Assembly (NCBI GenBank): GCA_963971425.1
Contig: OZ020514.1
Location: 41,639,158 to 41,703,157, forward strand
Source: Bryoerythrophyllum caledonicum
Taxonomy: Eukaryota > Streptophyta > Bryopsida > Pottiales > Pottiaceae
Reading direction: 5' to 3'
DNA length: 64,000 bases
The position numbers and the translations under genes are program-made. Under the pieces are notes generated by a model. It did no database searches. It saw nothing but the letters and a program-made list of their open reading frames with translations, and was not told where the DNA came from. This document shows positions 33,381-63,799 of this stretch, one piece after another (the stretch's first letter is position 1; each line of letters opens with the position of its first letter).

Positions 33381-33460
33381 GAATGCTTTATAAACGCAAT
33401 GGAAACGAAATGGGAATGCAATAGAAACTTATTGGAAACTCTACGTGAACAATGGATCAT
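33381..33460. repeat. GGGAAC-rich repeat, right part
   Basis: It begins with the second GAATG copy and continues 'atgggaatgcaatag', 'ttattggaaactct', the same word set as 16840-16979. It is the continuation of the target repeat. Confidence 0.6.
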
Positions 33461-41510: not shown

Positions 41511-41514
41511 TAGT

Positions 41515-41543
41515 GCACTTTAGCTCGAATGGAGCTAAAATGC
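41515..41543. repeat. A-type palindrome
   Basis: 'gcactttagctc', a short centre, then 'gagctaaaatgc', with one mismatch between arms. It is the first copy of the family on this side. Confidence 0.7.
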
Positions 41544-42295
41544 TGACGGGAAAATTCACAGACCACATTTAACATCCAACGAATAAAAACAAGCTCAACT
41601 GAAACAAAACTACATGAGTGCAATGTAGCTCAACAATAAACCAAGATTGTCTAAGCAAGAACGACTCAATAGTGCAATAACTTGGAGGTCAACCTAACAT
41701 GCACCGTGAGCGAGCGTTGGGAAGTAGCATCCCTTAAACCGTCATAGAGAATACGCTTTGGCGGAGTACAACTATCCGGATTTAGACGCGGAGACCCTGG
41801 AACTGAGTGAGGCCACAAAGGCGAAGGTGAGTTGTTCCTTTCATGAATTGGCTCCCGCGCAATAGGGCTTTCAACAACTCTGTTGTCCACTGCCATGGTC
41901 GAAGAATCCATGGTTGACTGCGCGGTTGCAGCAGAGTGCAATAAAAGCCCTTTACTCCGAAGGGAAAGGGCGAACCCCTCCGGGCCCAGCAAGGAATCCA
42001 CGGACGCCCGACAATCACAATCCTGTAGAGAGTTCAACTAAAGTGACGCTCATATACCTCAGACCAATTGACGAAAATTCCAATCATTCAAAACAATACG
42101 ACATTCCATTAGCAGTAGGTATCCATTCCGGAAAACAAAACAAAGCGGCGAAACATCTCGGTTTCACTAATCAAAAATATATATACACAAAAAATTATCC
42201 AACAAAATTTACAAACTGGCGTTGCAGTCAATCGATACAGTTTAGCTCTATCCGATCTAAAGTGTAATACGGATCTAAGCGTTTTCAATGGCATT

Positions 42296-43060
42296 AAGAG
42301 CGGAGATTCTGATAGGCTTGGATTGCGTTCCAGATTTTCGCACACTGACCACACGTCTTTTGATCATTATAGAACATCTCCCGGCCACAAGGATGTTCGG
42401 CCCCGTACTACGCTAGCTTACTCGGAAACTGATGAAGGTCGGAGAGATATGGCAGCAATTCCTCCAGCAGTACAGAATCATCTCTCGCGCCATCATGTTT
42501 GTGCGACCATGATGGAAGAAGAAGGATGTTCTCCGGCAAATTGAGCATATGCTTAATCGGGTTGTCGTCAGTGACAAGCATATTCACCGGAGTATACTCA
42601 CGACCCAACCTATTGAAGAGATGGTTCGATAAGGTCTTCAAGAAGATGTCCTTCTAAATGCCAAATTCCTTCATGTAGATTGTTCTCCTATCGACTCTAC
42701 GCTTGTGAACCCTATCGCAACCCTCCTGACCAAAGATCCTAAGAGGGTACGAAGAACTATGCTGAAAAAGATATTTACATATCTGACGAGTTGTGGATTC
42801 CATCATCGAACTCCAGATCGTGATGGTGGCAATCTTAGAAAACTTTGTCAGGAATTCAGCACAACCAAGACGCACTCGAACTAGTTTAGGGCCTACTTCG
42901 GCCGGCTACGAAGCCGAGTGAATGGACGAGTCAGAGTTCCTCGATCCCCTAGCCTGCCACGAAGGCTCACACGTGCATAGAATCCTATTGAAGTCCAGCA
43001 CAACATTCAACCACCTGCCCTCGAAATCTGATAGGACTCTAGGCATCTCTTATAGATTAC
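42296..43060 (-). other. Locus A: FCP1/NIF (HAD) phosphatase-like module
   Basis: In order: 'LNVVLDFNRILC' (HAD motif I region, D-x-N), 'LGCAEFLTKFSKIATITIWSS' (motif II region, WTs in active enzymes), then 'VNMLVTDDNPIKHMLN' (motif III/IV, active form IDDSP) and 'DDSVLLEELLPYLSDL'. The layout is that of PF03031-type CTD phosphatases. TAGs lie near 42907 and 42655, and the frame may continue to a TAA at about 42296. The catalytic second Asp of DxDx(T/V) is Asn. Confidence 0.6.
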
Positions 43061-43710
43061 TAGCACCACTTATTGATGCCTTACAGACCTGGTTCGAAAA
43101 TTCCAGGAGAACGAACAACATTACTAAAGATTCATTAACAACGACGGGTCAACAAAATGTAGAACAAAAGAGGCAAACGGGGGAGAGGCATCATGGGGGG
43201 GGGAGAGTGGAGTGTGAAAAGTGTTAGAAGAGTACCTCAAGAACTTCATCGTCTTGTTGCATTTTGTCTCGGACCCCCATCCATCCCAACGAACCCTGCA
43301 TGGTGTCAAGGGGTTCCGAGTACCCCACAACCATTTGGGGGCACGGTTCAGAGACAAGAAGAGGTGGCTCCAGGAAAACAGAATCATGATTGATCTCGTC
43401 TACGAGCACGGTTGAAGCTACGACAACGTCTTCTACGACTGGGACTGCAGTTAAGACGACCTCATCTATGACTGGGTGAGCAATCGCGTCATCACCAAAA
43501 CTTAGATCTGAAAAAATTCAACAACTTCAACCAATCAGCTGATGCGCACATAGGACACTGATACAAGTCAGAGTCGTCATATGTCAAGTAGTTTAGCTCA
43601 AGTCGAGCTGAAGTGCTCGCTGAGCACTGTAATATTAACAAAAAAATTTGGAGTACAAAATTGGACATTTACAAAATGTTCTGCCTCTATACACTCGCAA
43701 CTACGTTACA

Positions 43711-44673
43711 CTAACCTGACGATGAGCTGGGGGCACTTGCGATAGATATGTCCCAAGGGGGCGACTTCGGAGGGGAAGAGGGGCGGGCCGATGGGGATGG
43801 GGGAACAGGAAGCGATTGACCCCCAATGGAGACAGGGGAGGAGCTCGCCAGAGACGGCAACAACGAATCGTGGGATAGAATCCCTGACTCGCCTTCCGCT
43901 GAGGGGGGCGGTTGGGGGAATGCTGCATGAACTGCGGGTGGTGTCGTGGCGATAGCAGGCAAATTAGCCGACATGAATCTCTGCATCATGAGCATTATAT
44001 CGGCATGCCTTTGATCTTGGTCCCTCTTTATCTCTTCGTCACGCCTCCGCTGTAGATCCCTGAGCTTCTGGTCACGCTCCGATAGCCGCTACTCCATCAA
44101 CCTCATCCGGGTGGTCTTCTCTTTGAGCTTCTTCTCGAGGGCGATCAATCTGCTGTCATCCTGAGCGCTGCTCGCCATAGCCAACGGAGAGTGCCCGCTC
44201 GCGCTGGCGACCTTCCTCTTCTTGGCCGCGGGATGAGCGGATGACCCGCCTAAGGTGGGAGTTGAATGAGGCCTATCGGAAATATCCAGCGAATCCAACT
44301 CCGGGAAGTCGAGTTGTTGCCGCGAGGAACCGATTGTGTCTCCCGCTTCAGATTAAGAGACACTCTGAAACTCCGGAGGAGTGGCGTCAACAAAGTCGTC
44401 ATGGGACTCATCATCCGGAGTGGCCGTGCTCGAGCTCGGGCACACAACCAGGGCCCTCGAGTCCTCATCTTCCTCCTCATCGCCGAGGTCAACAATTGCT
44501 TTTCTCTTCCCCTTGGCAACTGCCGTGTCATGCTCGGGGAAGATCTCCGCGTTGACGTGATACAAACCAATAACAAAATCGGCCCAATCCAACGTCAATG
44601 CGACCTCCATGGCGTCGTTGTGGTCCTGCTCATCGGTGTCGTGGGATATGCAGAATGCCTCCAGATCCAACAT
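43711..44673 (-). other. Locus A exon: end of MTase-like fold, acidic linker, coiled coil, Pro/Ser tail
   Basis: Acceptor ggtgtgcag then 'MLDLEAFCISHDTDEQDHND', the expected SAM-acidic-loop part of the fold. Next come an acidic linker with 'KGKRK' and 'GDEEEDEDS', a Lys/Arg-rich coiled coil near 44200-44030, and a Pro/Ser-rich tail. One TAA (44353) and one TAG (44089) interrupt the frame. The exon ends at a possible donor (TCAG|GTTAGT). Confidence 0.5.
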
Positions 44674-44824
44674 CTGCACACCAATGGATTGAACGAGTTA
44701 TACATTATGTCGAATCGAGCTAAAAAGAATACAAAGGAACACGGCTACTTAAACTCAGCTATTAAAACTTGAAAGGATACGACATGATTGATGACGGCTA
44801 GAAAATCATATAAGTATAAGCCGA

Positions 44825-44943
44825 CACTTTAGCTCGACTCGAGCTAAAGTGCCACGCTACAAAAGCATAAGCAACAACCTCTCTGAAACAATCCATGCAC
44901 AAAGAGAGAGAGTATCAACACTTTAGCTCGACTCGAGCTAATC
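44825..44943. repeat. Two A-type palindromes in a locus A intron
   Basis: Copy 1 (44825-44851) is a perfect 13-1-13 palindrome, CACTTTAGCTCGA around a central C. Copy 2 (44919-44943) has a full left arm and a right arm decayed at its end. Both lie in the intron between exons 46314-44959 and 44673-43711. Confidence 0.85.
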
Positions 44944-44958
44944 TACAGGGAAACTTAC

Positions 44959-46314
44959 CACACTCGCAATCAATAATTTTGTCCTTCCAAACAGTTGGAC
45001 AACTGCCTCCTCCTTCTTGCAGAATAGCTCCAGGACCTTGATGAAGAACTCCATCCTCAGCTCGTTCATGTTCATGGAGTACGCCAGCTCGTTGTACTTG
45101 CGAAGCTTGGTGTGCAATACATGCTCTGGAGCTGCGTAGGTCTTCTTCACGGCCAGGATCTGCGTGAGCTCTTTCTTGAAGAGAAAGAGGAGGCCAATAG
45201 TGTCGAGAGCGTTGTTGCTCTTCGGTGCAAACCCCCCCAAGCGCTTGTTCTCGGAGGGAAGGTCCTTCGACTACAGCACATTGTATACATGGGCCCTCAG
45301 CAAACGCTGTCACTTGAAGGTGTGACTGCTCATCGCCACAAATGAAGAGCCAGGCTGGAAGATCGGTGAGGAGAGGCTGCCCTTTCGATGTGAACATCGT
45401 CATGAACTCGTCGAAGAAGGGCCTCTCCAACGACAATGTTGCCTTCTCAGAGAAACTAGGGATATTCTGGAAGTCGATAATGCCGAGCTTCACGTTGGAG
45501 CCCATGTTGCGCCTCGAATCTGAAGGCCACGTCCCAAGCAAATTTGTTGCCGCCTTGTACGAACGAAAGTGCAAGGCCCCTTGCGGTAGAATAAACCGTG
45601 ACTGCACATCGATGAAGACTCTGAAGAACTCCTTAGCATACGGATAGAGATCTTCACATTTGCAGTTGCAAAACTGCGTCTGCCTCGAATCCTTGTAGTA
45701 TGAATCCGGTGGACCCCAATCCAGGAGGGCACGCTTTGAGGCCTTGCTGACGTTGTAGTTCTTCTTGAACTTCCGCTAGTTGGAACGACTGTACGCTCTA
45801 GAGCTATAGAAGAAGGCCGGCTCCAGCCGGATCACTTGAAGCTCCATTCGAGCGACCTCCTTCCTCTTCCTCCGATCCACCTAGTCCCGGGCGGTGTAAC
45901 AATCCTCCAGCATAGAATTTGGCTGCTTTATAACCACCTCACCGTAGGGCAGTTTCCGAGATGTCCCTGATCGATTGAGAATGTGCTTGCCCATTTACGC
46001 GGATCGGCTTTGGTCATCTTGCCGAGATACTTGAAGAACTCGTGCGTTAGGATCCCATCATTTTCAGGCACCTAAGACTTGACGTCCTTGAACTTTGCCA
46101 AGGGCGTCAAAGTTGAATCAACGTTGATGAGGTCGCCATGCGCCGCCGAAGAGATGACATCCGACCAGAGCTTGAAGGTCTCATCGGTCGAGGTGATGAT
46201 CTTCACCTCGTTCGTAATTGAGAGCTCCTTCGCCTCTCCGGCTTTCTTGAGCGCTGCCTGGCTCTTCGCAACGTCGATCATTGCGAAGCGCTCACGAACC
46301 ACATTAAGAAATGG
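44959..46314 (-). other. Locus A exon: helical region and degenerate DNA-methyltransferase-like fold
   Basis: Opens 'PFLNVVRERFAMIDV' after a tacgcag acceptor. A helical part with a Cys-rich 'QFCNCKCEDLY' (near 45660) is followed by 'VKLGIIDFQNI' and 'AWLFICGDEQSHLQ', the places of motif IV and the next strands of N4/N6 MTases. It ends with 'FFIKVLELFCKKEEAVVQLF', matching the '..LI..F..PGD.VLD.F' run-up to the SAM motif I. The DPPY/SPPY catalytic tetrapeptide is not present. In-frame TAGs occur near 46073, 45882 and 45777. Confidence 0.55.
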
Positions 46315-46393
46315 CTGCGTAGAACATAAACAAGGTCGATTGAGTTTACAATTTAAGTAGAAATATAAACATATCCAGTAGGGTCCAATAACT

Positions 46394-46619
46394 GCAAGTT
46401 AACTTGAGTCGAGCTAACTTGCACTCTGAGAGTATACAATGTAAGCGATTTCAATCTCTATACAACATAATACAGATAGTGAGCAAACATACACTTTAGC
46501 TCGAGTCGAGCTAACTTGCAACCTTAGAGTATACAATGTAAGCGATTTCAATCTCTATACAACATAATACAGATAGTGAGCAAACATGCACTTTAGCTCG
46601 AGTCGAACTAAAGTGCATG
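46394..46619. repeat. Three A-type palindromes in a locus A intron, on a 97-bp duplication
   Basis: Copies at 46394-46422 (arms changed together to gcaagtta/taacttgc), 46492-46519 and 46585-46619 (flanks extend it to catgcac...gtgcatg). A 97-bp unit is tandemly duplicated between them ('agtatacaatgtaagcgatt...' at 46431 and 46528), with unit borders at the palindromes. Confidence 0.85.
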
Positions 46620-46640
46620 ACCTTGGTTATGATATATTAC

Positions 46641-48084
46641 CTCAAACCTCTTGTCATTGGCAATCTCCAATGGCGTTCTCCGTCCTGACTTGTGAGACCC
46701 GCAAATGCCCGCGGCGGAATGCTTCGGCATTGGTCTACCAGCTTGGATCCACAAAGCACGAGAGCCAAGGATATTGGTTGCCTACGTCGGCTTGAATTGG
46801 ACCAAGTGATCCACGCGATTATAATATGCGGATATCTTCCTCAGCTTTTCCGGATCCTGCGTCCAGACAATGTAACACTGCCATGTTCGGAAGTGCCTTC
46901 TCATAACCTCCGGGACATTGCCGTTTATCATCTCCTTTGAGGCAACAACGTTGTGCTGGCCGTTGATGATGTAGTAGTCGCAGTCGCTGCTCCTTAACCG
47001 TCGTTGGCATAACATTGAGCTTCGGCATGACGCAGAGAGTGTGCTTCTGTGTCTTGTCCGGCATTTGGAGGTAATAATGCTTCAACTCCTCCATACCCCG
47101 AGGTTCGAATGCACGGATCGTCCATTCCGGCGGTGCATTATGCAACCTCATCACGTCAAGCTCGATCTTCATCTCTCTGTCTCCCTGGAAGAAGCAGCTC
47201 TGACACTCCGTCCAGAATTTTTGGTAAATCTATTGGACGTTGTTGTAGTCGATTGTCTCTCCGAACCCGAGCGCCTAAGGGAGCTCGGAGAGTGCACAGG
47301 CCATCGAATTGGCTAACTCCTCCTGTGATACGAGCTTCGTCCTCTCTCTTGAAGAGGTCTCTGACTTCTTGGCAGCTGAGCGCTTCTTGACGGGGGAAGC
47401 GGACAGTGTGTTGCGTAGGGTGCTTCGACTTGTTCTTGCACCTATTGTTCTAACAGGTACCGACGCTTGACTCATATCCTGGCTATCGGTCACGGCCCCC
47501 GAAACTATCAAAATTTCTATCGGGCGTCTCCCCGCGATATGTTTTGCCTTATCTAGAGCGGCGAAGGTACTCATTCTCGATAGATTGACGCGGAGTTTAT
47601 TAGCCACAGCCTTTGCTTTCAGCGAGGGACCGCTACTAGTCTCCCATTTCTTTAGAGAGATTTCATGGTCGACCCGAGTCACTATTTCATCAAATTTGGA
47701 CGACCTAGAAGAATCGACTAAATCCTGGATACAAAAGGGTGATGAAACATTGTTCACTACAATAGTGAACATATAAGGCTCTACGGACTCAGTGGTTGTC
47801 ACACACGACAACTTAACGTGCTCGTTATCTTTGTGGACTACATCAATAATTTTAGTGGTGAAGTCCATGTGCTGGGGTCGACGATAGCACCAGCAAAGGT
47901 ATGACCAAACACTAAATGATCCGTATAGGTCGCCCACAAAAGCGTCCACTTCAATGTCATTGATGGGTCCTTTAGCTCCCAGCAATCCAAGTGGTTGTTG
48001 TCGTCTCCATCATCATCATCAATGTCGATGGGCTTTGGCTGGAAGAAGTGCTGCAGTTGAGTCACAATCATGTCCCTCTCAGAT
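46641..48084 (-). other. Locus A exon: N-terminal domain, basic linker, ParB-like module
   Basis: The acceptor is at 48085 and the donor after 46641 (GAG|gtaata). The N-terminal ~200 residues match locus B only in length and pattern. A Lys/Arg/Ser linker follows near 47350 ('KKRSAAKKSET'). The ParB-like part comes next: 'PPEWTIRAFEPRGMEELK' near 47100, then 'YYIINGQHNVVAS' near 46960-46920 in another frame, then 'CYIVWTQDPEKL'. ParB and related proteins carry a G-x-R/N-x-x-A type loop of this kind. The locus B counterpart is 'HFYKIGGQLGVAAHRQLL...FVTILWTKKESF'. In-frame TAGs lie near 47275, 47231 and 46783. Confidence 0.6.
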
Positions 48085-48150
48085 CTGCACACACACGAAA
48101 CCGAGCACAAATATTAGATTGCTTAAATGATCATCCAATTAGGACGGCGA

Positions 48151-48187
48151 GGTTACACTTTAGCTCGACTCGAGCTAAAGTGTAACC
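48151..48187. repeat. Perfect 37-bp A-type palindrome
   Basis: 18-bp arms (GGTTACACTTTAGCTCGA and its complement) around a single central C, with no mismatch. It lies just upstream of the first clear exon of locus A. Confidence 0.9.
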
Positions 48188-48656
48188 AAATACAAGTATG
48201 TCAATAATACTCTGCAACAAAATTTAGTCATTTGGAAAACCTCACTAGACCCATTAATTCAATTCATGCCAACTTCTCGTTCAACTTCTTAAACCGTGGA
48301 ATCGCTTACGAACCGATCCAATCACTCACGAACCTCACTCTTTGAGGTAGAGAAGTGGTTGGAGTGGGACTGAAGCTCATGCACACTTGTGAAAGGTGAA
48401 TGAGAAGTTGACATGAGTTGGGTCATCGATATCATCGGTAAACTTTACTTTTGGAATGCTTTTAGGTCCGAAAGTAGTGGTGTTTGAGTTGTAATTTAGG
48501 TCATTTGTTTTACACTTTAGCTCAATTCGAGGTAAACTTTGTTGACTTTGATGATTCAAAAGTTCATCTTTATCGAGTACTTTGGGTTCGAGATTTGTTA
48601 ATATCACCAACTTAGCTTGATCCAGGTTTTAGCGCGACCATAGACGCATTCAATTG

Positions 48657-48955
48657 GCTGCACTTTAGCTCGAGTCGAGCTACAGTGCAGACAAAGATGC
48701 ACTGGTCATGTACATTTCAGCTCTACTTGAGCTGAAGTGTACAGGACTAGTGCATCTTTGTCTGCACTTTAGCTCGACTCAAGCTAAAGTGAGCCAACAG
48801 TGCACACTATTGGCCCCACTTTAGCTCGGCTCGAGCTAATGTGCGACCTATAATGCGCTCTATTGGCCGCACTTTAGCTTGAGTCGAGCTAAAGTGGGGC
48901 CAACAATGTGCTCAATTGGACACACTTCAACTCAACTCGAGCTGAAATGTGTTGA
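48657..48955. repeat. Array of six A-type palindromes
   Basis: Copies lie near 48660, 48712, 48763, 48817, 48868 and 48922, at a spacing of about 52 bp. Spacers such as 'gccaacagtgcacactattggcc' are themselves partly palindromic. Arms vary but mostly vary together, for example TTCAGCTC with GAGCTGAA. 48661-48791 is also one large nested palindrome. Confidence 0.85.
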
Positions 48956-49639
48956 GTGAATGCTGATTTTATTAGAGTTTGTGCAAAATTGTCTTCTGTC
49001 TAATGATATTTAAGGTGTAGGGTTTAGGGCTCCTACGTGACAATATATATTTTACCCTTCAGCCATTGATAATGAAATGTTATTCCAGTACTTTTCTGTT
49101 GGAACTAGACGTCTTGCAAGAACAATAACAAACCCTCAAACACAATCAATCAACTAATCACTCTATCTCAAAATCAAAAAACAACAACATGCAAACAGAA
49201 AATACAACCACACAGAAGCAATCAAAATGCAGAACCATTGAAAAACCTAAACATAAATCAATACATTGAACATTCAACACATTGAACGTTTCAACACATT
49301 CAACATTCAACACATCGAAATCAGCACATTCAAAGCGGCACATTGAAACCAAATTTTTTAAAGAAAAACCGAAGTGGTATCAACACTACGATAGAAATTA
49401 ACACCAATTCCACAAAACAACAATCAACACACGCACTCCCAATACAAATAGAAACTAAGAGCATGAGACACAACAAATGCCTGAAGAAAAGGAAAAAAAA
49501 TCATACAATCACTGCAAACACCAAACACCAAACAACATAATTTCACCAAAAGAAAACCAGAAACACGAAACAACAAACATAATTCACCAAACTAGAAAAA
49601 CCATTAAACAATTATAGAAGAATGCAATCTGTACACATA

Positions 49640-50250
49640 CCTTTAAGTGTCGAAAGTCTTCTTCAGCTTCTTGTTCTTCCTCCTCTTCGAAATTCAAGTC
49701 AATCCTTCACAGCTTCACGCGTTTCCATTTCTACGTGCTTGAAACCTCACACAATTCTAACTCTCACTTCCTACAAACCCTATGAGCAGAAAACCTAAGC
49801 CTACACGTTTCAGAGAAGGTGTGCAACAAACCCTGACAGAAACTCTATCAACGGTGCCGCTACAATCACAAACTCACGAGTACTCTACACGAACAAAGCG
49901 CAACAAAAGCACAAGCGCAACACGAACACGAGCGTATCACGAACACAAGCGCAACACGAGTAGAGCGCAAAAAAAACACGAACACGAAGAGGATGAGCAT
50001 AGACACAAACACGAAGGACAAACACAGACACAAACACGAAGAGGAACACGCACAGGATCATGAAAATGGGAGAGAACTTGCGGCCCGATTCCAAACCCTG
50101 GACATCTTCGACTTCAAACCCTAAGCCGTGACGTCGGCTCTTATAGCCGCGTGGATACCCTCGAGATACCCTCAGGATACCCTTGAGATCGCCGTGATAT
50201 CCTCGGGATGCTCCCTCAGATATCGGCCTAATACCCTCGGGTATTATGGT
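49640..50250. repeat. Low-complexity and short tandem repeats
   Basis: 49860-50050 is made of variants of 'cacgaacacaagcgcaa' and is open in several frames without meaning. 50145-50245 is a degenerate ~11-bp repeat around 'gataccctcgg'. 49650-49720 on the minus strand reads as an acidic stretch ending at a possible splice donor. Confidence 0.6.
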
Positions 50251-50925
50251 GGATGCACCATCTTTTTCAGAGATTTTTTTTTTAAATTACTTTTCCATTT
50301 TTAAAAAAATCAGTTTGATTTTGTACATTCTCCATTTCATTTTTAACAAAAGTTAAACCTTCTCGTAATTTCAGTTTATACGCGTTTACAATTTCTCTAC
50401 TTGTAAGTTTCCAAGACAATTTCTCTGAGCCTAAAACACTACAAATTTGTAAATTCTGAGGCAATGATCGGGAGTCAAAGAAAATATAATATTTCCAATT
50501 TCAAACGTATGATCTCATTTAAGACTTATATATTCACATATTCTCTATAATACACAAACATTGATTGCACGGACGTGAACAACTCATGTTTTTAGTGTTG
50601 AAAATAGGATTAAAGTGCTTGGTTTTCTTTCATGCTCTGAGTGGATTAGCTGGCTTTCACTTGACACAATTTTAATTACTGCATTACACAAGGTGTAAAT
50701 TCATTACCATCGTTATATATAAGTTCCTTTTACACTAGTTATTAGGTGTTGGAGAGGGGTGAAGCACATTTAAAATAGTTCTAACGATACGATTTAGGAT
50801 TCTATTACTTTGAATTCCAATTTTCCTTTTTTGTGAGTTTGATATTTATTACTCTGTGAATCGAACAGACTATTAGTATGTTAAGACCACATCTTGCAGT
50901 AGTATGAAGGTAAAATAAATGCCGG

Positions 50926-51027
50926 TGCACACTTTAGCTCTATTGGAGCTAAAGTGTGCATATTTTCTTTTTAGTTCCCTACATTTAGTGATGGTGCACA
51001 CTTTAGCTCTAATAGAGCTAAAGTGTG
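50926..51027. repeat. Two A-type palindromes, subtype with TATTG/TAATA centre
   Basis: Copies at 50926-50960 and 50997-51027 share GCACACTTTAGCTC arms but a different 5-bp centre from the copies in locus A. The ~70-bp unit (palindrome plus 'tattttctttttagttc') is repeated here and again at 52476-52620. Confidence 0.85.
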
Positions 51028-51117
51028 AATTTTTTCTTTTTATTTCACTTCATTTTGCTTTAGTATGTTAAGCTTTAGTATATTTGCTTTTAGTGTAACG
51101 ATACAAATAGTGTAGTT

Positions 51118-51373
51118 AGAGCATCTCCACTTGTGATGGGGAATTTTCCACGCCATCACGAGACGTGCCCAAGTTTGAGATGACGGGAGAGGGGTTACCC
51201 TTTCCCTTCCGCACCCGTCCTAGAATTGGCCACTCCAAGGGAACGCCAGCGCTCGCTGCTGTCGCCGTAGTTGGCCCTTTTTTCTTTAGTTTTCTATTGT
51301 TTTTTTAATTCCCTCGTGTCATTACATGATTGGACACATTCTCCCGGACCCTCTGCCCCGGTGGAGATGCTCT
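51118..51373. mobile_element. MITE candidate, 256 bp
   Basis: Perfect 13-bp terminal inverted repeats AGAGCATCTCCAC bound a GC-rich 256-bp stretch in AT-rich DNA. Flanks are T-rich; a TTA/TTT duplication is possible, which would suit PIF/Harbinger-type or related elements, but it is not exact. No coding capacity. Confidence 0.7.
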
Positions 51374-51659
51374 TTTTCTAGTACACTATTTGTCAACAAG
51401 TTGGCAATTAGTTTTGGCCGTCATTGTCATTAATATTATCCTTCATTTGTCCACCTACTGCAGTTCATTTTGTATTAGCCCTCAATCAAAATCCTACCAT
51501 AGCACACAAATTTGTTACTTCATAAATAGTGTTAGCTCAGAATCTTCTGCCAACCGGTTGCCATGCATTTATTCTTCTTGTCTCATCTTCAACCTCAAAT
51601 TCTTATCGTCTTATTCACAACTATTCTCATTCTTTTGTCTTGCATTTCTTTTACATTAT

Positions 51660-53977: not shown

Positions 53978-54070
53978 CTAAACCAGGACCCTAAATCCTA
54001 AACCCTAAATTCCAAACCCTAAACCCTAACCCTAAACCCTAACCCTGCGCGTTATCCTAACCCTGAATCC
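53978..54070. repeat. Interstitial telomere-like repeats (CCCTAAA)
   Basis: About ten intact or degenerate CCCTAAA/CCCTAA units are mixed with variants such as 'cctaaatcc' and 'ccctgaatcc'. CCCTAAA is the plant-type telomere unit. The degeneracy indicates an internal, not a terminal, site. Confidence 0.8.
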
Positions 54071-54684
54071 CACAGTTATGTGTATATTACTCACATGTGC
54101 GAGTATATTTGAGGTTTGTACTCTTCCTTATTTTAATCGACCGGGAAATAGTGGATTCAGTTTCTCGCCGAGATTTAAAATTTCCACTTTTTATGGGGTT
54201 GTGGAAAAGTTTCTTCCCGCCAATTCTGAAATTGTAGCCCAGAATGGAAACGGTCGTGTTACCGTGAGTGACCTCGCCGAACTTCGGCCAGTTTTCTCAT
54301 TTTTTCCTTCTCAGTTTGGTTGATGTGCAAGGCTCGTGGGTGGGAGGCTTGGAGGTGGTACAATTGTGGGAGGTTGAGGAGTGCAACATCTATAGATTGC
54401 GCACAGTTGAGCAGGGCGCTTGCGCGAGGCGGCCACGCACCGGTTGTCTACTTCATAAGGTACAAATGTATACATTTTGCATTCTCCGTGCACTCTAGCA
54501 TTTAGGATGTGACACTGATGCTTATTGCTCTACTTCCTATTTCTACTGTGATTTTGAAGCATCACTGCGGCTATCTTGATGACTGACGCAAAGATTTGGG
54601 CTCTAGTATACAGAAAGGCAGATCCATTGGCTGAAGAGTTTGTCTGTATGAAGCCCGAAAATGATGCCGAGAATCACGGAAGGA

Positions 54685-54713
54685 CATTCTAGCTCAAATG
54701 GAGCTAAGATGCG
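54685..54713. repeat. Last A-type palindrome
   Basis: 'cattctagctc' ... 'gagctaagatgcg', decayed. The first B-type repeat starts within about 70 bp of it, so this is where the two palindrome territories meet. Confidence 0.6.
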
Positions 54714-54777
54714 ATATTTAAGTAAAAATGGACTTTAGAATAAAATGTGGACTTTGAAATCCGGACTTTACTACGAG

Positions 54778-55085
54778 ACCCGGAGAGCTCCCGATGTAGG
54801 TTACGTGGAGAGCTGGAGATATTAAGTTTTCATAAACCGAAAAGGGAGGTCCCGAACCATGTTATGTCCAGACCGGGCGAGCTCCCGATCCAAGTTACCA
54901 CGTGATCCGGGGAGGTTTCATCCAGGTGACCCTGAAATCGGGCGAGCTCCCAATCCAGTTACGTTGGGACTCGGGAAGGTCCTCATTCAGGTTAAGTCTA
55001 ACCGGGCGAGCTCCCGATCTTGGTTACGCCGTGATCCGGGAAGGTCCTCATCCACGATATAGCTAGACTGGCCGAACTCCTAATC
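54778..55085. repeat. B-type repeats, GGGCGAGCTCCCGAT subtype
   Basis: 'accgggcgagctcccgat' and variants recur four to five times, alternating with 'gtgatccgggaaggtcctcatcca' phrases at a combined period near 110 bp. They are related to the GATCGGG...CCCGATC family but have a GAGCTC or AAGGTC centre. Confidence 0.75.
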
Positions 55086-55455
55086 CCTATTTTTTTGGGG
55101 GAATCTTAACAAAACAGAGACCTGCTAACAGTTGACCAGCTAACAAAACCACATCTCTTAGAATTTGTACATCGAGGTTACATCCTAGACCGAGCAAAGA
55201 AAATAGACAATGTTCATGTGTTGCATTGAATTGAAGACCTTTAAAGAATTGAAAATATAAAAGGGAGTAAATAGACATTCATGTATGCAATGATTTGAAG
55301 ACCAATAAGGAATTGAAAATTTATTCACATAATATTGGAATGTGCAACAGTGGGAACAAAAAACAGAGAGAGTACCCATCTATATTAGGTTACCTCTACA
55401 TATTCAAAATAACGCTCACGAAAAATCTCCTACGCTCTCAGGATCTCCCAAAACT

Positions 55456-55482
55456 GTTTCGATCGGGGGCTCTCCCGATCCC
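55456..55482. repeat. B-type palindrome
   Basis: 'cgatcggg-ggctct-cccgatccc', an isolated copy just downstream of the last FCP1-like exon. Confidence 0.75.
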
Positions 55483-55601
55483 ACAGTCCTGATCGCGTTC
55501 ACCTCTATTCTTTTAGTCCCCAATCGAGTGGTCTTTCGAACTCAGTGGCCGAGATTGCATCACCTCTACCTACTCTTAAATAGTTCGCCATATTGCCATT
55601 G

Positions 55602-56199
55602 CTAACATAGTATCTGTTTACACTGACCATCCATATCATGTGTATGAAGATACTCCTTTACAGACGGTGAAGATCGCAGCGGCAGGATGAACGGAAGCAA
55701 TGTTGTTGCAATGTCAGGTATAACTTTCCTTGCATTGGGTAAGGTCATCTCCCCATGCCATGACTTTGGAAAGTAGTATGCCAAGTTTCCGTTCATCAAA
55801 TTCCGCCACGTGAAATCGTCAACCATCAATATCTGGTCCTTTATGCCGAAGTCCTTGGTTGCTTTGTCGTGAGTTAGCCGTAGTAGATCCTTCATGCATG
55901 ATGGATACCTCGCCGGCAAAGAACACTTATTTCGTCCATAAACAAAAAGGAGTTTTGTCCTTATATCTTCGGGGAGGATGACTTGAAGAACCTTTCTCAG
56001 GCGTTTGGCTTGCATTGACGACCGTATGCCAACACGGAAGGACCTCAGAAGGATTTGGAAGAATTCTACGAGACCAGGCCGAACTGCTATGTTCTTCGGA
56101 TCAAATCGTTGTGGGTTGTGATTATGGTATGGCTTGAAACAAAGCAATCCGTTGACAACAATAGGACAACTTTCTTCGAGTAGTCACGGCGTCGCTGTA
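55602..56199 (-). pseudogene. Second FCP1-like module (B2), degenerate
   Basis: Directly downstream of the gene ending at 56378, an exon-like stretch with a tgtttacag acceptor near 56199 encodes 'PIVVNGLLCFKPY' (HAD motif I region without its Asp), 'VRPGLVEFFQILLRSFRVGIRS' (motif II region) and 'DQILMVDDFTWRNLMN' (motif IV region). It looks like a tandem duplicate of the FCP1-like module at 57081-56378. It could be an alternative 3' end of the same gene or a separate relic. With the nucleophilic Asp absent it should not be a phosphatase. Confidence 0.5.
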
Positions 56200-56377
56200 A
56201 ACATAACAAAAAAAAAGAATGTTATACACAATAGACAAGGTAATGTACAAAATATTGAGGGGAATCATAACAAAACAGCTATGACATGGCGTTGTCAATA
56301 GCGTAAAAGAGCGTAACAAGCCCTGCAGGTATACAAAACCGGTGTGATAAAATCATAATATACTAGACCACTTCAGT

Positions 56378-57081
56378 TCACGACGGAGAAGATTTAGGTG
56401 AAATAAATCTACAAGTTTGTTGGTCCCACGATTGAGAGCATCCTTTTACTATATTTTCACCTACTTTAGAGCGTCTAAGAATAGAACCATCAGTAAATCC
56501 GGAAAGGAGACTGGCCTGTACATATTGAGGTACAGAACAAAGTGAAGCTATCATACTCGACAGCCACGGACGCAGGGTCTCGCGGAGGAAGTTGTCATCC
56601 ATATCACTAGTCCACGTAGGTGGGTGAATAGCACTGAACTCGTTATTCAGGAGATTCTTCTCAGGACTATCGTCAATAAGCAACGTTAGGTTGGGGTCAA
56701 TGAAATCATGGTCCCTTGCGAGTTTAGAGAGGTCCTTCAGCATGTACCTCTTGGTAGGATGGTCCACTCTAGGATAAGTGGACTTCGTCGTATCATCTTG
56801 CGACAAGACTATAAGCTGAACTTGTGTCAGTTTAGTATCACGTAGAAGTGCTGTGACCATATCATCCACAGTATGGGACATCGCACAACTCCATATGACC
56901 ACATTAGCCTTACTGCGCAACCACTCTAGAAAAACACCGCCCTCGGGTCTAGGAGTGCAGATGCGGTTAAAGTGAGGCCTATGAACTAAAAATCCATTTA
57001 AGTCCACAACGACAGTGTACTTCGGTACCCTTACCGTGGATTCCCGAGGTGCTCGAGGCTCAGCTGCTCGAACTGGACCAC
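56378..57081 (-). other. Locus B exon 8: FCP1/NIF (HAD) phosphatase-like module
   Basis: Contains 'YTVVVDLNGFLVHRP' (motif I, D-x-N), 'GGVFLEWLRSKANVVIWSCA' (motif II region), 'KDLSKLARDHDF' and 'NLTLLIDDSPEKNLLN' (motif IV, intact IDDSP), then 'DDNFLRETLRPWLSSM'. These are the landmarks, in order, of FCP1/SCP-type CTD phosphatases. The second Asp of the catalytic DxDx(T/V) is Asn and the following Thr is Phe, so it may be a binding-only pseudophosphatase. The frame is fully open to TGA at 56378. Confidence 0.7.
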
Positions 57082-60000
57082 CTGAAACAAGAAGCAATAT
57101 CCAAAGGTGAGCCATACTCTATCAGACAAAACATGGAAATGGGCTTTAGAGAAGGGCGTCTCAAGTAGAGGATGGAGCGAGCACCCGATCTCCATAGAAA
57201 TATTGGGCGCGCTCCCGATCACCACTGGACGATCGGGCGCGCCCCCGATCTCAACAGGAAGAATTTGTCACACGAATTACTCAGAATGAAACATAGGCGT
57301 GGAATCTCACCATCAATTATTGATGCCGGAACGGCACGTTCGCTGGACAAATGACACTTTGAAATGCTTCCGATTTCGGTAAAAGCTGCGGCAGGCTTTG
57401 ACACGCTTCCACTAGGAGCAACGACTTGAAGATCTTTCTTCGCATCTGCACCAATGGATCCTAGATGACCAAGTGCAAATTAGGACCGATGAATATAAGA
57501 GTCAGAAGAAAATGAACAAATAACCAAAGGCAAGAGATACCTACCTAGGAGAAGGGGATTTCCTCGAGCAATTGAGGAGCACTCCAAGGAAGACGAGACA
57601 TCAGCTTGAATCATGGCTCTTTCAAAGATTAACCCGTCATGGACTTCCGCAACGGCAGATTCCGATGGAATGTTAGCGGGGCTAAGAGGCTTCAATACAT
57701 CATCGAACATGCCTTCGTAAGCCCCTTCATCGACTACCTGTTCGCAAGGTGAATCCGTCAATGAAAGATTACGCCCCGGAGTAGAAGGTAGTTGCAGAGA
57801 TCGTAAGTCAGTAAGTGCGCTGACAACCACCACCTCCACTTCGGTTGGGCCTTCCTCAGGGTCGGGCACGTGACCATCAGTGGCGTCGCCAGATGAAGGC
57901 TGATAGGATTGATCTACCTGCATCAAAGCCGGCCCGGACAAAGGAGACTCTACGACTGCGGGAGTAGTAACTGCTGCTGGGACACGTACAATCCTCGCTG
58001 TTATCCGCGTTCTAGAATCGATACCTCGGACTCTCATTGCCCTTTCATGATCGAACGGAATACAAATTGGCTCCCTTGGTGGGGATTCAGGCCTGTTATA
58101 CCACCTCTCTTCCGCCTCCAGTACCTCCCGCTCCTCATCCGACTCTCTCACCCTTCGTTCTTCCATTGTCTCCTCCCTTGCTTTGTCTTGCCCAGCTCTG
58201 CCAACCTCAATTCCATGCCTTGATAATCTATCGACGTGCATATCCTCCACGGAGTGAGGGGTGTCTTGGGTGGATACTGAAGAAGGAGATACATCGTGAG
58301 GGTTGGCGGATATTGGCTGCGCGAAGGACATACATTCAGTGGATGGACATACAAATGTCAACAATCATACCCAAAGCCCAAAAAGATCGGACTGGAAGAT
58401 CGGGTGCGCACCCGATCCGGACCATGAGATCGGGGGAGCACCCGATCCGATCTGGAAGATCCGGAGCACAACAGATCTGATAGACGAAACCGAAGGCGAA
58501 CCCGGTCCCATCGGCGAGATCGGGAGCGCACCCGATCCGGTCAAAGAGATTGGGAGCCCACTCGATCTCAATATACCTGAATTTCAGAGTATGAAAATTA
58601 AACATTACAAGAGAAGCAGACGTTGTGGCAGACAATGAATGCGTATTGAGAATGAGGGGGTGGGCTGTACCAAATTCGAGGACGGCGATCCACTCGTGCG
58701 GTAGGCACCGACACTCCGTGCTGCCTGCAAGAAGGAGGACTACTGAAGATATAAACACTACCAAAGATGTATTATGACGCACTACATTAATTGGTTCAAA
58801 GTCAATTATAAAGTGTTTAAGTCCATGGAAAAAAAGTAGTCGATGGGTCATACGTTGCCACCAATGTCAGTGTTGTCCCGGCCAAGATGCAAATGTCGCC
58901 TGGTGTCAGAAAAAATAACGCTTGGTTCGGCCTCGGTCTCGGACAGATGGCGCTGAGTGAGTTCTGCTTCGTCGGCGGGCTGACTCACATCAGGTCTAGG
59001 TAGCGCAGCGATCGGATTTCCTATTGGGGCGCGTCTTCCATTCGATCCATTGTCGTTGTTGTCCTCTTCCTCAGCGCCCTCTTCAGTACGATCCGGATCC
59101 GGTATCTCCCCTTCCCTATTGTCGTCCTCTTCGTCGTCACGTTCCGATTCATTGTCTTTTTCTTCGTCACTCTCAGGGCCACCGTGGTCAGTGCCAGCTT
59201 CATCTTCTGAAGACTCTGACAGAGTCTTTTGTCGTGCACTCCTGAGAACGATTCTTCTCTCTGGCCGTACATTTTGGGCAGGTGCACGTGAAACGACCAG
59301 GGACTTCTTTCTAATTCTCTCTGCCTTGGACAACCTCTTCTTAGCCGGCGGAGCCTCACGCGGAGCCTCAGGCGGGGTAAGGGCTAGAACCTGACGTGCA
59401 TCCCAAAATTTCTTTGCATTGTCAAAAGCAAAGGTCTTGTCTGCTGTTGAGAACACAACCTCCACGACTCTAGCACCTTTGGTCTGCAAGAAAAGACCCG
59501 TTTTGAACGTAAGGTACATGATTAACGCAGCTAAAAACATCAAGAGCGAGAGTGATAATGATGACAAATGATGACATCATTCTTACCAGGGATATCCAGG
59601 TAATCGCAAAACCAGCTCCGACGTTGATAATAACAACGTTTCGACGGCAAAGTACACCAATCAATTTGTCCACCGCGTCAACGTTGAAGTTGGCACGCCC
59701 GACCTGATCACAACTCGATTTGGAGACGCTCTCGAAGTCCTTCGCATTCCACACAGGTTGAAACTATAGATCAGGCCCGAAGTAGTCTCGGAAGCTTGCC
59801 TCCGCTGCGTTGCCATCGGTCTGCCCAAAGACGAAATTGAAGTAGAGGGGTAAGGTTGGCTCAACCAATAGCGGTTTGGCAAACTACTCGGCCAGAGAAG
59901 TGAGGTACATTGTCGACGTGTAATCCCAAACATGTCCTTGAAGATAATTTTGATTTTTATCATTGAGCAAGTTCACCAGCACAACCAACCCAACGCGGTC

Positions 60001-63000
60001 AGTTATAAACACACGTGGACTTCGCGCTCTCCTAAAATTCTGCTTATCCCTACTCTCCATTGCCGTGAAGCATTTCACCATCTCTTGCTTCAGGACGGAT
60101 GCATCTCCGGATCCGTGCTGCCCTTGGTTGACGAAGCAGTAAATGTAGATCTGCTTCAAATTCTTCGCACTGAAGGTCTTCAGGCTCTCGTTTGTCAAGA
60201 TATTCTTTACATCACCGGTTTTTCTATCCGGCGACCTGACACGATAGTAGGATTCCATAAGCTCTTCAGGTTCTTCTCTGGATGCGCCACAACTACCACC
60301 AGCACTATCCCTCTCACTGTCCCTCAGCTGCTGAAACATAGTCTTGAGCAAGGGTGCAATGTCGTCTGTCTTATGAGAGGGGTTCAGATTGGCAGTCCGC
60401 TCCGAGAAGAATAATTGACCACGCTCGTCTTGACTCAGTCTGTTGTACCAACTGAGAAGTACATCCTCGATAATCTTGTGGGCAGCAGAAAATTGCTCGT
60501 ACTCCTCCTTATATGGTTCTTCTACCGTCTTCTGTGGAAGCGGCTTCCCCTCAAAGTGGTGCATGAGCTCGTTCTTCAACACTCTCAGCCTCCTCTCAAT
60601 AAAGCAAAGGTCCTTCAGACTCCTCAGAACAGCCGGCTTCTTAAGTCCCTTTGAGAATTTCACAGAAATTTCTTTCCGCATCACTATGTCGGCCATCTTC
60701 TGACACTCATCATTGGTTAGTCCATACAGATCCTGAAGATCGTTCTTGTGGAGCGCCCAAGACTCCCTGTTCTTCGCCAGCTTCGAAGCGCGACTTTTTG
60801 ATGATGACCAAGCTCCTTTGCGTCGTCGTCGTCATCGACACTCGTAGAAAGGACTCCTAGAACATTGTTCCAAGGATTGGGAAGTAGTCCGTCGATGTAT
60901 AACTCCTCGACTTGGACCCATTGTTGGAAGAGAGGATTCAGAACGTACAACAACGAAAGTTTCGGCGCTCCACTACTTTTATCGAGATCCAGAGCGCCTG
61001 GTTTGTTTTCTGAGAAACATGCTTTGAGCTTCTCAACAAATGCCTGAAAGCATGAAATGAAGTAAGTACACTCTCGATTGAGGGAGAAGATTGGGGGCCC
61101 CGATCCTGGAGTAAAGCAAAAACAACGAATAAAAAGAACTGGAAAACTTAGTGGAAATGATGAACCTCAATAAACTAAATGGAATAGTACAACTTACATT
61201 GAATTCTTTGGTGTTCAGGGCACCATTCTGTTTGGGCAACGGGTTGACAAGCTCGTTCCAGCATCTCCGAGCTGTTTGCAACTGATTTAAATAATTGCCC
61301 TCCTTCCGATTACCAACAAAGTCTTGGTTTAGGAACTTGCTGAAGTACGTGAGCTGGTTGAATGACTCCTTTTTTGTCCACAATATCGTGACAAAGTACT
61401 TACGGGCGCTGGCGGCGTCGCGATCACTGAGGCTACCTTCTTCGAGGAGCTGTCTGTGAGCTGCGACACCAAGTTGGCCTCCTATTTTATAGAAGTGCGT
61501 ATCCCTGTTGATTTGATCCCGTCTTGGCTGTTCGGCAAATAATTCCACGCCTCCGTCTTCCGTGTTTGGGTCATCAACTGGAGTAGGAGGTCCCCTTATC
61601 GGCATCATGAAGACATGTTGCAGCGCCACGTTGAAGGAAGGAATCGTCCTCTTCTACGTGACTAAAGCTTCGACTCGCGACGGTAAAAGAGGTCGGTACA
61701 TGATTGTTGGTGCCTGAGCCCTATGCAGGTTGTCAATGTCGACGAGGAGGTCCGGTTCATTTGGATTGTCCTTGATCTTGAAAGGGCGCTGGCCGAATAT
61801 GTGCAAAGGGGCGAACTCCGTCTCAAAAAAGTCGCGCAACTGTAGAAGCTCCTTCGTAGTGAATTTCGCAACAGCGGAGTGGGTAAGATTCACAGCTTTG
61901 GCCAATGTCATTCCCTCAGCAGTTTTGGCTTCGGGTTTCTTCCAGGCCGACTTTTTCTTGATGGGTTTCTCTGCCACAGTCGGACCGCCGCCCGTTGAAG
62001 CTCTCTTCCGCTTTGGAGGGGTGATCAGAGGACGCCGCTGGCTTTCTTCCTCTCCCACGTTTTTTGCAACAACACCCGCCATCAACTCAGCCCAGACCTC
62101 ACACAAGTCACTTGCGTCGACACTATCGCCATCGATAAAGAACCCCAAGTGCTCCACATCTTCGCAAAGCGAATAATTCAATCGTGCGGTGGGTAGAACT
62201 AAACCAAATAATTTTCTTGCTCTTGCTGATGCTACATATTCAGTGACGATCGCAAGGACGTGTTTTGTTGATTGAATTTTGTACAGTCCCAGAACCTGAG
62301 AGTCCTTGCTTGGTAATAAGCGTGGCGGTCCGTTGCGCTGTCTTCTGTCCTCAATCAAGATGACCGGTGCGACGAAGGTTCTACCCTGAGCCTCTTCTAT
62401 CCCCAACTCCAGACCCCATTCCTTGGTCATGTCGGCAAGGTAAAAAGCGGCAGGCTGCGATTCTGAGTCTCCTTGATAGGACATTGTGAGCAATCTGCAA
62501 CTGATCGCAGGTTTAAGCCTCACCGGGAGCAACTCCTTCGGCACATTCTTTAACGTTGCACGGTTGGCTCTGCGAAAATGAACGTGGCAGATCGGGCGCG
62601 CTCCCGAACTTGGGGGATCAGGTGCGCTCCCGAACTTGGGGATCGAATGGGGGACCCGATCTCGACTAGGATATCGGGCGCGCACCCGATCCCAACCCAG
62701 ACATCGGCTGCGCGCCCGTTGTCGACTGCCATCGGGTGCGCTCCCGATATCAATTACGAGATCGGGCGCGCTCCCGATATTTTAGTGGAGATCAAACAAG
62801 CACCCGATCTCCACTAGGGTATCGAGCGCACACCCGATCCCAATCCAGACATCGGCAGTGCGCCCGTTGTCGACTGCCACCGAGTGCGCTCCCGATATCA
62901 ATTACAAGATCGTGCGCGCTCCCGATCTATACGAGGAGATCTTGAGCTCTCTCGACCGCCACTTTCTTCAACGAACGCACTCCCGAGATCTCTTATGAGA

Positions 63001-63799
63001 TTGTGGGAGCAAATTATCTCCCAGTGTAGATTAGGAGCGCTCCCGATCTTATTGCAGATCGGGCGCGCTCTCGATCATCACTACGAGATTTTGAGAGCAC
63101 CTAATGGCCATTAGAAGATCGGGTGCGCTTTCGATCTTTTAGTGGAGATCGAATGAGCTCTTGATCTCGACTAGGGTATTGGGTGTGCACCTAATCCCAA
63201 CCGAGGCATCGGGTGCACGCCCGATGTTGACTGCATTTAGGACCAACATACATATACTTGGCAAAAAGTACTACTACCTGGTTCAGCCACTCTGGCTCAA
63301 AATTTGGCTTACTGATCACCACTGCTATCGGGTGCGCTCCCGATTTCAACTCTGAGATTGGGCGCGCTCTTGATCTATAGGAGGAGAGTTGGAGCGCTCT
63401 TGACCGCCTTTTTCTTTACTGTGGGAGCAACCTATCACGAACTTGATCGGGTGCGCTCCCGATACTATTGCAGATCGGGCGCGCTCCCGATCATCACTGG
63501 TTGATTTTCAGAGCACCTAATGGCCATTACAAGATCCGGTGCACTCCCTATCTTTTAGTGGGGATCGAACGAGCTCTCGATTTCGACTAGGGTATCGGGC
63601 GAGCACCCGATCCCATCCAAGGCATTGGGCGCGCACTCGATGTCGACGACGTATATACGGTCACATAATATACGGTCATATAATATACGGTTTCATGTAT
63701 ATGGAAGTATATGAACAGTTCAAATATGAATGAGCAATGAAATACTTACTGGTTCAGCCACTCCGGCGCCAGATTCGAGTGACTGATTGCCACTGCCAT
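56378..63799 (-). CDS. Locus B: giant ParB-like / methyltransferase-like / FCP1-like gene
   Basis: Eight exons can be placed: 63799-63750, 62569-61198, 61043-59587, 59483-58854, 58724-58671, 58316-57545, 57460-57311 and 57081-56378. All introns are GT-AG, and every join agrees in phase provided one single-base frame change near 60790 is allowed. The sum is about 1,729 codons ending in TGA. Three in-frame TAGs occur (61654, 59884, 59764). Order of parts: MAVAISHSNLAPEWLN start, N-terminal domain, basic linker, ParB-like module, helical region, MTase-like fold, very acidic linker, then FCP1-like module. The gene may instead be two genes, since a TGA follows directly at 58848 if the GTATGA donor is not used. 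Five of the flanking or intron segments hold B-type palindromes. A recently dead gene, or one whose TAGs are tolerated, are both possible. No function is claimed. Confidence 0.6.
57176..57253. repeat. B-type palindromes in a locus B intron
   Basis: Three copies in a row: 'gagcgagcacccgatc', 'attgggcgcgctcccgatc' and 'gatcgggcgcgcccccgatc'. They lie in the intron between exons 57460-57311 and 57081-56378. Confidence 0.85.
58385..58575. repeat. B-type palindrome array in a locus B intron
   Basis: About five copies, such as 'gatcgggtgcgcacccgatc' and 'gatcgggagcgcacccgatc', about 35-40 bp apart, in the intron 58670-58317. Arms GATCGGG/CCCGATC are well kept; the 6-bp centre alternates among GCGC-type words. 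Confidence 0.88.
58854..61043 (-). other. Locus B exons 3-4: helical region, MTase-like fold, acidic linker
   Basis: Exon 3 (61043-59587) carries a helical region, then 'SPRVFITDRVG' and 'LYFNFVFGQTDG', and ends at 'VDKLIGVLCRRNVVIINVGAGF'. Exon 4 (59483-58854) opens 'TKGARVVEVVFSTADKTFAF'. Across the junction this is a SAM-binding motif I (VxxxGAGF) and acidic-loop pattern, aligned with 'AVVQLFGRTKLLIASV|MLDLEAFCISHD' of locus A. Motif IV (DPPY/SPPY) is lost. The rest of exon 4 is basic ('PAKKRLSKAERIRKK'), then a long Asp/Glu-rich tract. A frame change near 60790 lies by a run of A on the minus strand. TAGs at 59884 and 59764. Confidence 0.55.
61089..61105. repeat. Single B-type palindrome in an intron
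   Basis: 'gattgggggccccgatc', near-palindromic, inside the short intron 61197-61044. It shows that the family also occurs as single copies inside locus B. Confidence 0.65.
61198..62569 (-). other. Locus B exon 2: N-terminal domain, basic linker, ParB-like module
   Basis: Acceptor cgcag at 62570, donor AAT|gtaagt after 61198. The N-terminal domain (about 62500-62080) has no known name. It is followed by a Lys-rich NLS-like linker ('PPKRKRAS', 'KPIKKKSAWKK'), then 'DLLVDIDNLHRAQAPTIMYR' and 'HFYKIGGQLGVAAHRQLL', aligning with 'IELDVMRLHNAPPEWTIR' and 'DYYIINGQHNVVASKEM' of locus A. ParB N-terminal domains share this G.....A loop. In locus B the INGQH core is IGGQL, so activity as a CTPase or nuclease is doubtful. 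One TAG at 61654 splits the frame. Confidence 0.6.
62583..63242. repeat. Main B-type palindrome array, proximal part
   Basis: About 15-16 GATCGGG...CCCGATC-type palindromes at about 40-bp spacing fill intron 1 of locus B. They are organised into longer units: the phrase 'gcacccgatcccaa...cagacatcgg...gcccgttgtcgactgcc' recurs at about 62671, 62819 and, more diverged, 63178. Centres are GCGCGCT, TGCGCT, GCGCAC and similar. Confidence 0.9.
63278..63325 (-). other. Duplicated copy of locus B exon 1
   Basis: On the minus strand this encodes AVVISKPNFEPEWLNQ followed by a GTAGTA donor-like site. It is clearly related to the true first exon (MAVAISHSNLAPEWLNQ, 63799-63750). It lacks an ATG at the matching place. 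It sits inside the palindrome array and was probably carried along when array segments duplicated. Confidence 0.75.
63323..63642. repeat. Main B-type palindrome array, distal part
   Basis: A second run of seven to eight palindromes parallels the order of the proximal part, including 'tcaactctgagattgggcgcgct', 'gaccgcctttttcttt' and 'ctagggtatcgggcgagcacccgatcccatcc'. This indicates duplication of a ~420-bp block with exon 1. Confidence 0.88.
63643..63749. other. Short spacer between array and exon 1
   Basis: AT-rich, with a triple 'atatacggt' repeat near 63650-63690. The splice donor ACCA|gtaagt of exon 1 lies at its right edge on the minus strand. Confidence 0.6.

Follow-up and report, generated by a model that had tools for sequence, protein, structure and literature searches.

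Bacterial ParB proteins load on palindromes (parS) and slide outward along the DNA as a cytidine triphosphate (CTP) clamp. Among transposons, CACTA (En/Spm) elements, with CACTA ends and a 3-bp target duplication, carry subterminal repeats that are bound by TNPA, and the VANDAL elements are of the Mutator type. VANC proteins, which bind family-private motifs and remove methylation, keep VANDAL transposons expressed against host silencing; the motifs are given as 8-9 bases long and not palindromic (PMC10398659). For Sola2 transposons, 4-bp target duplications that are AT-rich have been described (PMC3627910). Here we analyze a stretch of 64,000 nucleotides from the moss Bryoerythrophyllum caledonicum (GenBank assembly GCA_963971425.1, contig OZ020514.1, positions 41,639,158 to 41,703,157 of the forward strand; hereafter the window), which lies at 41.64 Mb on a 65-Mb contig of a 437-Mb genome. 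An initial annotation had described two ParB-like loci in this window, A and B, each within its own territory of private palindromes that could be cognate binding sites or hairpins. The territories turned out to be the bodies of two related giant DNA transposons that are present in many copies, B being nested in A. Three families of such elements, A, B, and C, each have their own palindromic (dyad) motif in the introns adjoining the ParB-like exon.

A-like sequence is repeated along the contig as long blocks that end in the inverted repeat AACACCATATTCGTTAT.... The copy in the window is a DNA transposon of ~18.9 kb that extends from 40878 to 80232, beyond the window end, between AACT target duplications. 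The core of its terminal inverted repeat (TIR) was found at 18 distinct places in the DNA examined, and six copies had both ends. Four of these six are flanked by an exact 4-bp duplication (AACT in the window copy, TAAT in copy c, CATC in copy d, and CCTA in copy e); the duplication of copy b is off by one base, and copy h, which adjoins an inverted second copy, has none. In the window, the A sequence breaks at 54708 and resumes at 75122, while the uninterrupted copy c is continuous at this place. Between these two positions lies transposon B (54709-75121; 20,413 bp), a relative of A with an imperfect 28-bp TIR and, in the single copy with both ends seen, the target duplication TAAG. Two more copies, at 22.17 and 34.78 Mb, align with B and show one B end each. 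Since B inserted into A, the border between the two territories at 54.7 kb is an insertion edge. A and B belong to a single group of giant DNA transposons (~19 and 20 kb) that have TIRs and 4-bp duplications. The insertion point of B (54701-54711) coincides with the right arm of an A dyad, a single case that may be due to chance; an A dyad or its bound state could attract insertions. A short array of CCCTAAA-like units, which we take to be the plant-type telomere repeat, was seen at 53977-54046 within transposon A, in a region that also aligns to other copies.

Scanning the window yielded 22 A-type dyads with starts in 41516-54685 (at most 6 of 22 positions mismatched) and 33 B-type dyads, all starting in 54777-63623 (at most 4 of 18 mismatched); with up to five mismatches, 39 B-type units were counted. 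Thirty first-order shuffles per segment gave a mean of 0 A dyads, compared with 21 observed in 40878-54708, and a mean of 0.07 B dyads. Neither type occurred in positions 1-40877 of the window, and lone 7-mers outside their own territory were GATCGGG at 50466 and CCCGATC at 13842. An unbiased hairpin scan (score of at least 9) found 16 hairpins versus 0.9 expected in 41.5-54.75 kb, five versus 0.25 in 54.75-63.7 kb, and 12 versus 2.5 in the first 41.5 kb. Confinement of the two sets to 41.5-54.7 and 54.8-63.7 kb, as originally noticed, therefore holds inside the window, but both sets have further dyads beyond its end, at 75149-79895 for A and at 69950-75009 for B. These include dense arrays upstream of the transposase-like gene, namely eight A dyads spaced at 47 bp (75149-75478) and 24 B dyads at exactly 30 bp (69950-70640). 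A dyads are not restricted to introns, being also located between genes and at most 0.7 kb from either end of the element (41516 and 79561-79895).

The observation that the palindromes of the genes fall in introns and not in exons, introns being taken as the GT/AG-bounded gaps that separate conserved open frames, was largely borne out. None of 30 A arms (at most one mismatch) in the window copy lies in coding sequence, which makes up 34% of that stretch, and the counts across five A copies (34-40% coding) were 0/30, 0/45, 0/45, 0/40, and, in copy c, 2/48. Similarly, none of 28 B dyads (at most three mismatches) in the window falls within six exon intervals, although four of these are open frames of the window itself. 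Exceptions are thus the two arms in copy c and one of 65 B dyads, which is located beyond the window (72292) in an open frame that immediately precedes the DUF7869 frame. In A and B, for which entire elements were examined, tens of dyads are present; they also occur between the two genes and farther out, but hardly ever in coding sequence.

A search with the ParB-like exon of B gave 88 matches from 1588 candidates, 55 of them at 59% identity or more and 33 at 39-47%. The latter represent the third family, C, and a third palindrome, GATCGTAAGATCTTACGATC, with a 28-bp period is found in the introns upstream of two C-like exons. Six A stretches contained 14-33 A dyads each and no B or C dyads, three B stretches contained 52-65 B dyads, no A dyads, and 0-2 loose C matches, and two C stretches contained 11-12 C dyads and neither A nor B dyads. 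Genome-wide, exact A arms numbered 4909 and 4836 versus 48 and 42 for the reversed word, an enrichment of about 100-fold. Of 100 A-arm sites listed, 95 could be placed and 93 of these lie within A copies or at most 300 bp from them; the remaining two are about the number expected from the control rate. Exact genomic sites of the B palindrome number 126 versus 0 in the control, and those of the C palindrome 46 versus 0 (1830 versus 6 with up to three mismatches). At least 30 of the 46 exact C sites lie no more than 1 kb from a C-like exon, and no exact C site has a listed B exon within 10 kb; among the 50 B sites listed, at least 39 have a B exon within 10 kb and none is near a listed C-like exon. 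That each palindrome is private and goes with the adjacent paralogue, as put forward in the initial annotation, thus holds and extends to a third family with its own palindrome.

The gene content of A and B is alike, comprising a DUF7869 (transposase-like) gene and a divergent ParB-like/FCP1-like gene; the MT-A70-like part was examined in A only. Pfam matches to DUF7869 have E-values of 1e-42 in A and 8e-38 in B, and, given the place of the gene in the element, its product is a putative DDE transposase. Among seven open frames of the right half, three match DUF7869, and no other Pfam family was found at E up to 0.1. A PDB sequence search with the transposase frame gave nothing at E up to 1. 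The earlier label of ParB-like was retained, for the A exon owing to a Foldseek match to the ParB N-terminal fold and for the B exon through a profile match to the A exon. When six-frame translations were searched at E up to 0.1, the profile of the A exon failed to match that of B, which was reached by profile-profile comparison only (26% over 179 columns). By comparison, the transposase-like proteins of A and B are 39% identical over 363 aa. A PDB sequence search with the ParB exon returned only five unrelated ATPase chains (E 0.23), no Pfam match to a ParA ATPase was found among the A or B frames scanned, which cover the elements only in part, and NCBIfam gave nothing above cut-off. The methyltransferase label, tentatively, and the FCP1 label were also kept, the former because the second exon of A is best matched in Foldseek by MTA1/METTL14 (probability up to 1.00, with weak E-values) and the latter because of Pfam NIF domains, all above cut-off, in A (E 6e-19, from a sister copy) and B (2e-14 and 3e-5). 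The Pfam family N6_N4_Mtase matched one of 58 alignment members at E 0.029. In B, a short exon encoding an end of the EWLNQ type occurs twice (63279-63322 and 63751-63801), each time with its own palindrome-filled intron, as a tandem exon-intron duplication. The features are compiled in Table 1.

Table 1. Positions of the nested transposons A and B, their dyads and their exons in the window.
Feature	Position	Strand	Basis and remarks
Target site duplication AACT of transposon A	40874..40877	.	second copy at 80233-80236 (locus L027)
Transposon A, left part, TIR AACACCATATTCGTTATATTGGGA...	40878..54708	.	alignment of same-contig copies; TIR core; A resumes at 75122 and ends at 80232
22 A-type dyads CACTTTAGCTC-N5-GAGCTAAAGTG	41516..54711	.	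window scan
A dyad starts (1)	41516, 42238, 43589, 44701, 44825, 44919, 46395, 46492, 46589, 48156, 48513
A dyad starts (2)	48661, 48713, 48765, 48817, 48870, 48923, 50930, 50999, 52480, 52549, 54685
FCP1/NIF-like phosphatase exon of A	42284..43016	-	approximate, position estimated from copy L012:4312-5046 (open frame)
MT-A70-like methyltransferase exon of A	44932..46320	-	approximate, placed from open frame of copy L015:5143-6612
ParB-fold exon of A	46623..48062	-	stops and frame break in window copy; fold match
Target site duplication TAAG of B	54705..54708	.	second copy at 75122-75125; within right arm of decayed A dyad
Transposon B, in-window part, TIR ATGC..A..ATTTAA.TAAA.ATGGACTTT	54709..64000	.	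TIR found again in two other B copies, one end each
33 B-type dyads GATCGGGNGCGCNCCCGATC	54777..63642	.	at most 4/18 mismatches; array spacing mostly 30 bp or close to its multiples
NIF/FCP1-like frames of B (two; 55602-56183, 56378-57118)	55602..57118	-	Pfam
B frame(s) after ParB-like exon	59590..61166	-	tblastn of open sister frame; methyltransferase position in A
ParB-like exon of B	61036..62583	-	one TAG stop here; open in sister copy L030:1448-3019

With regard to function, the dyads may be family-private binding sites of a protein encoded by the element, likeliest the ParB-like one, in a self-recognition of the VANC style, a reading that we prefer to the alternatives and hold to be about as likely as not. 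The best candidate reader of the private dyads would be the ParB-like protein of the element itself, and because a sliding ParB clamp would suit an element with many loading sites, it appears to be the natural one. Acting as a clamp gated by CTP, it would load on the dyads and spread over the element that encodes it, and the methyltransferase-like and carboxy-terminal domain (CTD) phosphatase-like parts would thereby act on self copies only. The likely purpose would be to keep the element expressed despite host silencing, as VANC does for VANDAL. Since a private motif would make this action family-specific, motif and protein would be expected to diverge together. The window copy is decayed and could be a target only, not a source. 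More tentative is the wider proposal that eukaryotic giant transposons have adopted a bacterial-type ParB clamp/parS logic as a self-code that delivers both modules against silencing, with clamp and palindrome co-evolving and remaining orthogonal in chromatin; we regard it as possible but rather doubtful.

Several observations weigh against binding by a ParB-like protein or against its proposed action. The fold match of the A ParB exon has a weak E-value (9e-3 at best), as does that of the second exon of A (7e-3 at best), and no member of the two alignments matched Pfam ParB or MT-A70 at E up to 0.1. Weak or missing structural fold matches exclude nothing. No helix-turn-helix of the ParB type was identified, the model being poor after residue ~440. 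The CTP motif of ParB is GERR and the catalytic motif of MT-A70 is DPPW. The transposon protein reads GQHS at the position of the former, and the latter is not evident in the consensus of the A methyltransferase exon, motif IV not having been mapped to its model; it is therefore doubtful whether nucleotides are used and whether there is catalysis. As to the dyads, the contrast of 1.27 bits per column in the core versus 0.29 in the spacer, obtained for B units picked by their core, is inflated by the picking, and it is smaller when the units of an array are taken by position. Part of the conservation may be due to tandem growth and gene conversion, and the joint changes in the A arms described below would likewise be given by a hairpin. 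Finally, an exact C palindrome is missing from the 10 kb around 13 of the 33 C-like exons, five of 19 B exons in the covered part of contig C1 have no exact B palindrome, and 16 of the 46 C sites and 11 of the 50 listed B sites are near no listed exon. These 13 C-like exons may indicate that further families exist, each with a private motif.

Alternatively, the dyads could be bound by the transposase-like protein, or by another DNA-binding protein of the element, that assembles a transposition complex in the manner of the CACTA subterminal repeats. The presence of a transposase-like gene in both A and B, the dense arrays upstream of this gene, and the dyads near both A ends are consistent with such a role. 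However, dyads are also found in the introns of the ParB-like gene in the middle of the element, far from the ends, and the transposase is better conserved between A and B than the ParB region (39% versus 26%), yet the A and B motifs are unlike. We therefore consider this alternative unlikely, while it is the strongest competitor of a ParB-like reader.

Somewhat less probable still is that the dyads are neutral palindromic repeats that multiplied within each family through tandem duplication, template switching, and gene conversion and are tolerated only outside exons. In favor of this, tandem units of 97, 69, 53, 47, 30, and 28 bp and a 148-bp higher-order copy are present, and the contrast between core and spacer is only moderate in unbroken arrays taken by position. 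Even so, the core is kept better than the spacer in both arrays and in the C intron (1.49 versus 1.11 bits in 24 B units, 1.64 versus 0.95 in eight A units, and 1.61 versus 1.18 in ten C units). In a copy-to-copy comparison of A from which the window was left out, the arms were 91.2% identical (9066/9944) and the flanks 77.7% (31379/40364). The arms were better kept at 11 of 11 sites, a further site having no usable copies, and this includes the dyads that lack a close neighbor (arms versus flanks 0.918 and 0.886 at 42238, 0.948 and 0.860 at 43589, and 0.929 and 0.754 at 48156). These values replace an earlier comparison against the window (91.5% versus 81.0%, 10/10), for which the window sites had been picked for intact arms. 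Three families with a motif of their own in the intron adjoining the ParB exon are likewise not what neutral spread would suggest.

A role of the palindromes as RNA hairpins in introns, in splicing, small-RNA production, or editing, appears improbable. Many dyads are intronic, and the A arms covary above expectation (121 joint changes versus 75.9 expected); 62 changes are compensatory, 45 of them at one position. On the other hand, the distance between the A half-sites was 5 in 101 of 101 pairs when 0-14 was allowed, which leaves no free loop, the B centre positions pair below chance (12/98 versus 27), and covariation of the B arms is not clear (36 versus 31.1 expected). In addition, many dyads are located between genes, and Rfam gave no match in window positions 40800-64000. 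Taken together, fixed spacing, rare pairing of the B centres, little covariation in B, and arms kept better than flanks are more in keeping with DNA sites of a symmetric protein than with RNA hairpins. The ParB fold and the closeness of the palindromes to the gene had suggested a pair of host loci in which each ParB has a parS-like territory of its own on the chromosome. This reading is hardly credible and was rejected, since alignment within the contig identifies both loci as nested copies of transposons that have TIRs and target duplications, at least 85 copies of the A exon were scored, and the motifs travel with the copies.

The A ParB exon has at least 85 scored genomic matches at 90-100% identity, taken from 2116 first-look candidates. 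No stop is present in 30 of the 85 scored copies; the stops elsewhere comprise 66 TAG, 20 TAA, and 15 TGA, and the window copy is decayed by stops and a frame break. An alternative code with TAG for glutamine, considered as the stops in the window are mostly TAG, was rejected because 30 of the 85 copies are stop-free and TAA and TGA stops occur too. C-to-T decay at methylated sites would be the likelier cause. Homologues are frequent in metagenomes, with 63 for the A ParB exon and 78 for the A methyltransferase-like exon, one named relative being from the moss Physcomitrium patens. The B piece 59884-60831 had no homologues at E up to 1e-3, and a scan of viral contigs with the A ParB-exon profile produced 101 pattern matches but no relative. 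Database entries related to the transposon proteins also include ones filed as uncultured cyanobacteria (Leptolyngbya, Synechococcales), which may be contigs of eukaryotes that were assigned to bacterial bins.

Elsewhere in the window, direct repeats of ~0.9 kb at 17014-17886 and 32544-33421 are 68-100% identical by translated pieces. Frames between them, at 24.1-28.3 kb, encode a reverse transcriptase, an integrase, and a weak zinc-knuckle, and the whole is probably a Gypsy-type long terminal repeat (LTR) retrotransposon. An imperfect hairpin with 23-bp arms at 15055-15107 is unrelated to the A and B palindromes.

In the open-licence literature searched, neither DUF7869 nor a dyad code with a ParB-fold candidate reader in giant DUF7869 transposons was found; a ParB domain was mentioned along with plant transposable elements in one paper, which deals with another subject. 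Compared with the described systems, A and B resemble VANDAL elements in the distribution of their motifs, but the dyads are palindromes of 20-27 bp, the candidate reader has a ParB fold, and the transposase-like gene belongs to DUF7869, goes with a 4-bp duplication, and was not found to be of the Mutator type. CACTA elements are alike in being TIR transposons with many copies of a private motif; in A and B, however, the ends are not CACTA, the duplication is 4 bp, and motifs are distributed throughout the introns of the whole element. With Sola elements, the 4-bp target duplication is the sole agreeing feature here, whereas an AT-rich duplication is no rule in A (CATC, CCTA). The MT-A70 proteins MTA1/METTL14 are the best fold matches of the second exon of A, but at ~10% identity and, as noted, with weak E-values and no evident catalytic motif. 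The ParB/parS system, like those of Noc and KorB, differs in that here a eukaryotic transposon gene with MT-A70-like and FCP1-like parts goes along with dyads that number in the tens in each element. That transposons can carry private motif codes is already known from VANDAL elements, where these codes are read by VANC. If the proposed reading is true, self-recognition by private motifs would have arisen more than once, and naturally orthogonal pairs of the ParB/parS type would exist in a eukaryote. How a transposon might evade silencing without harm to its host thereby becomes a direct question of binding between three proteins and three palindromes.
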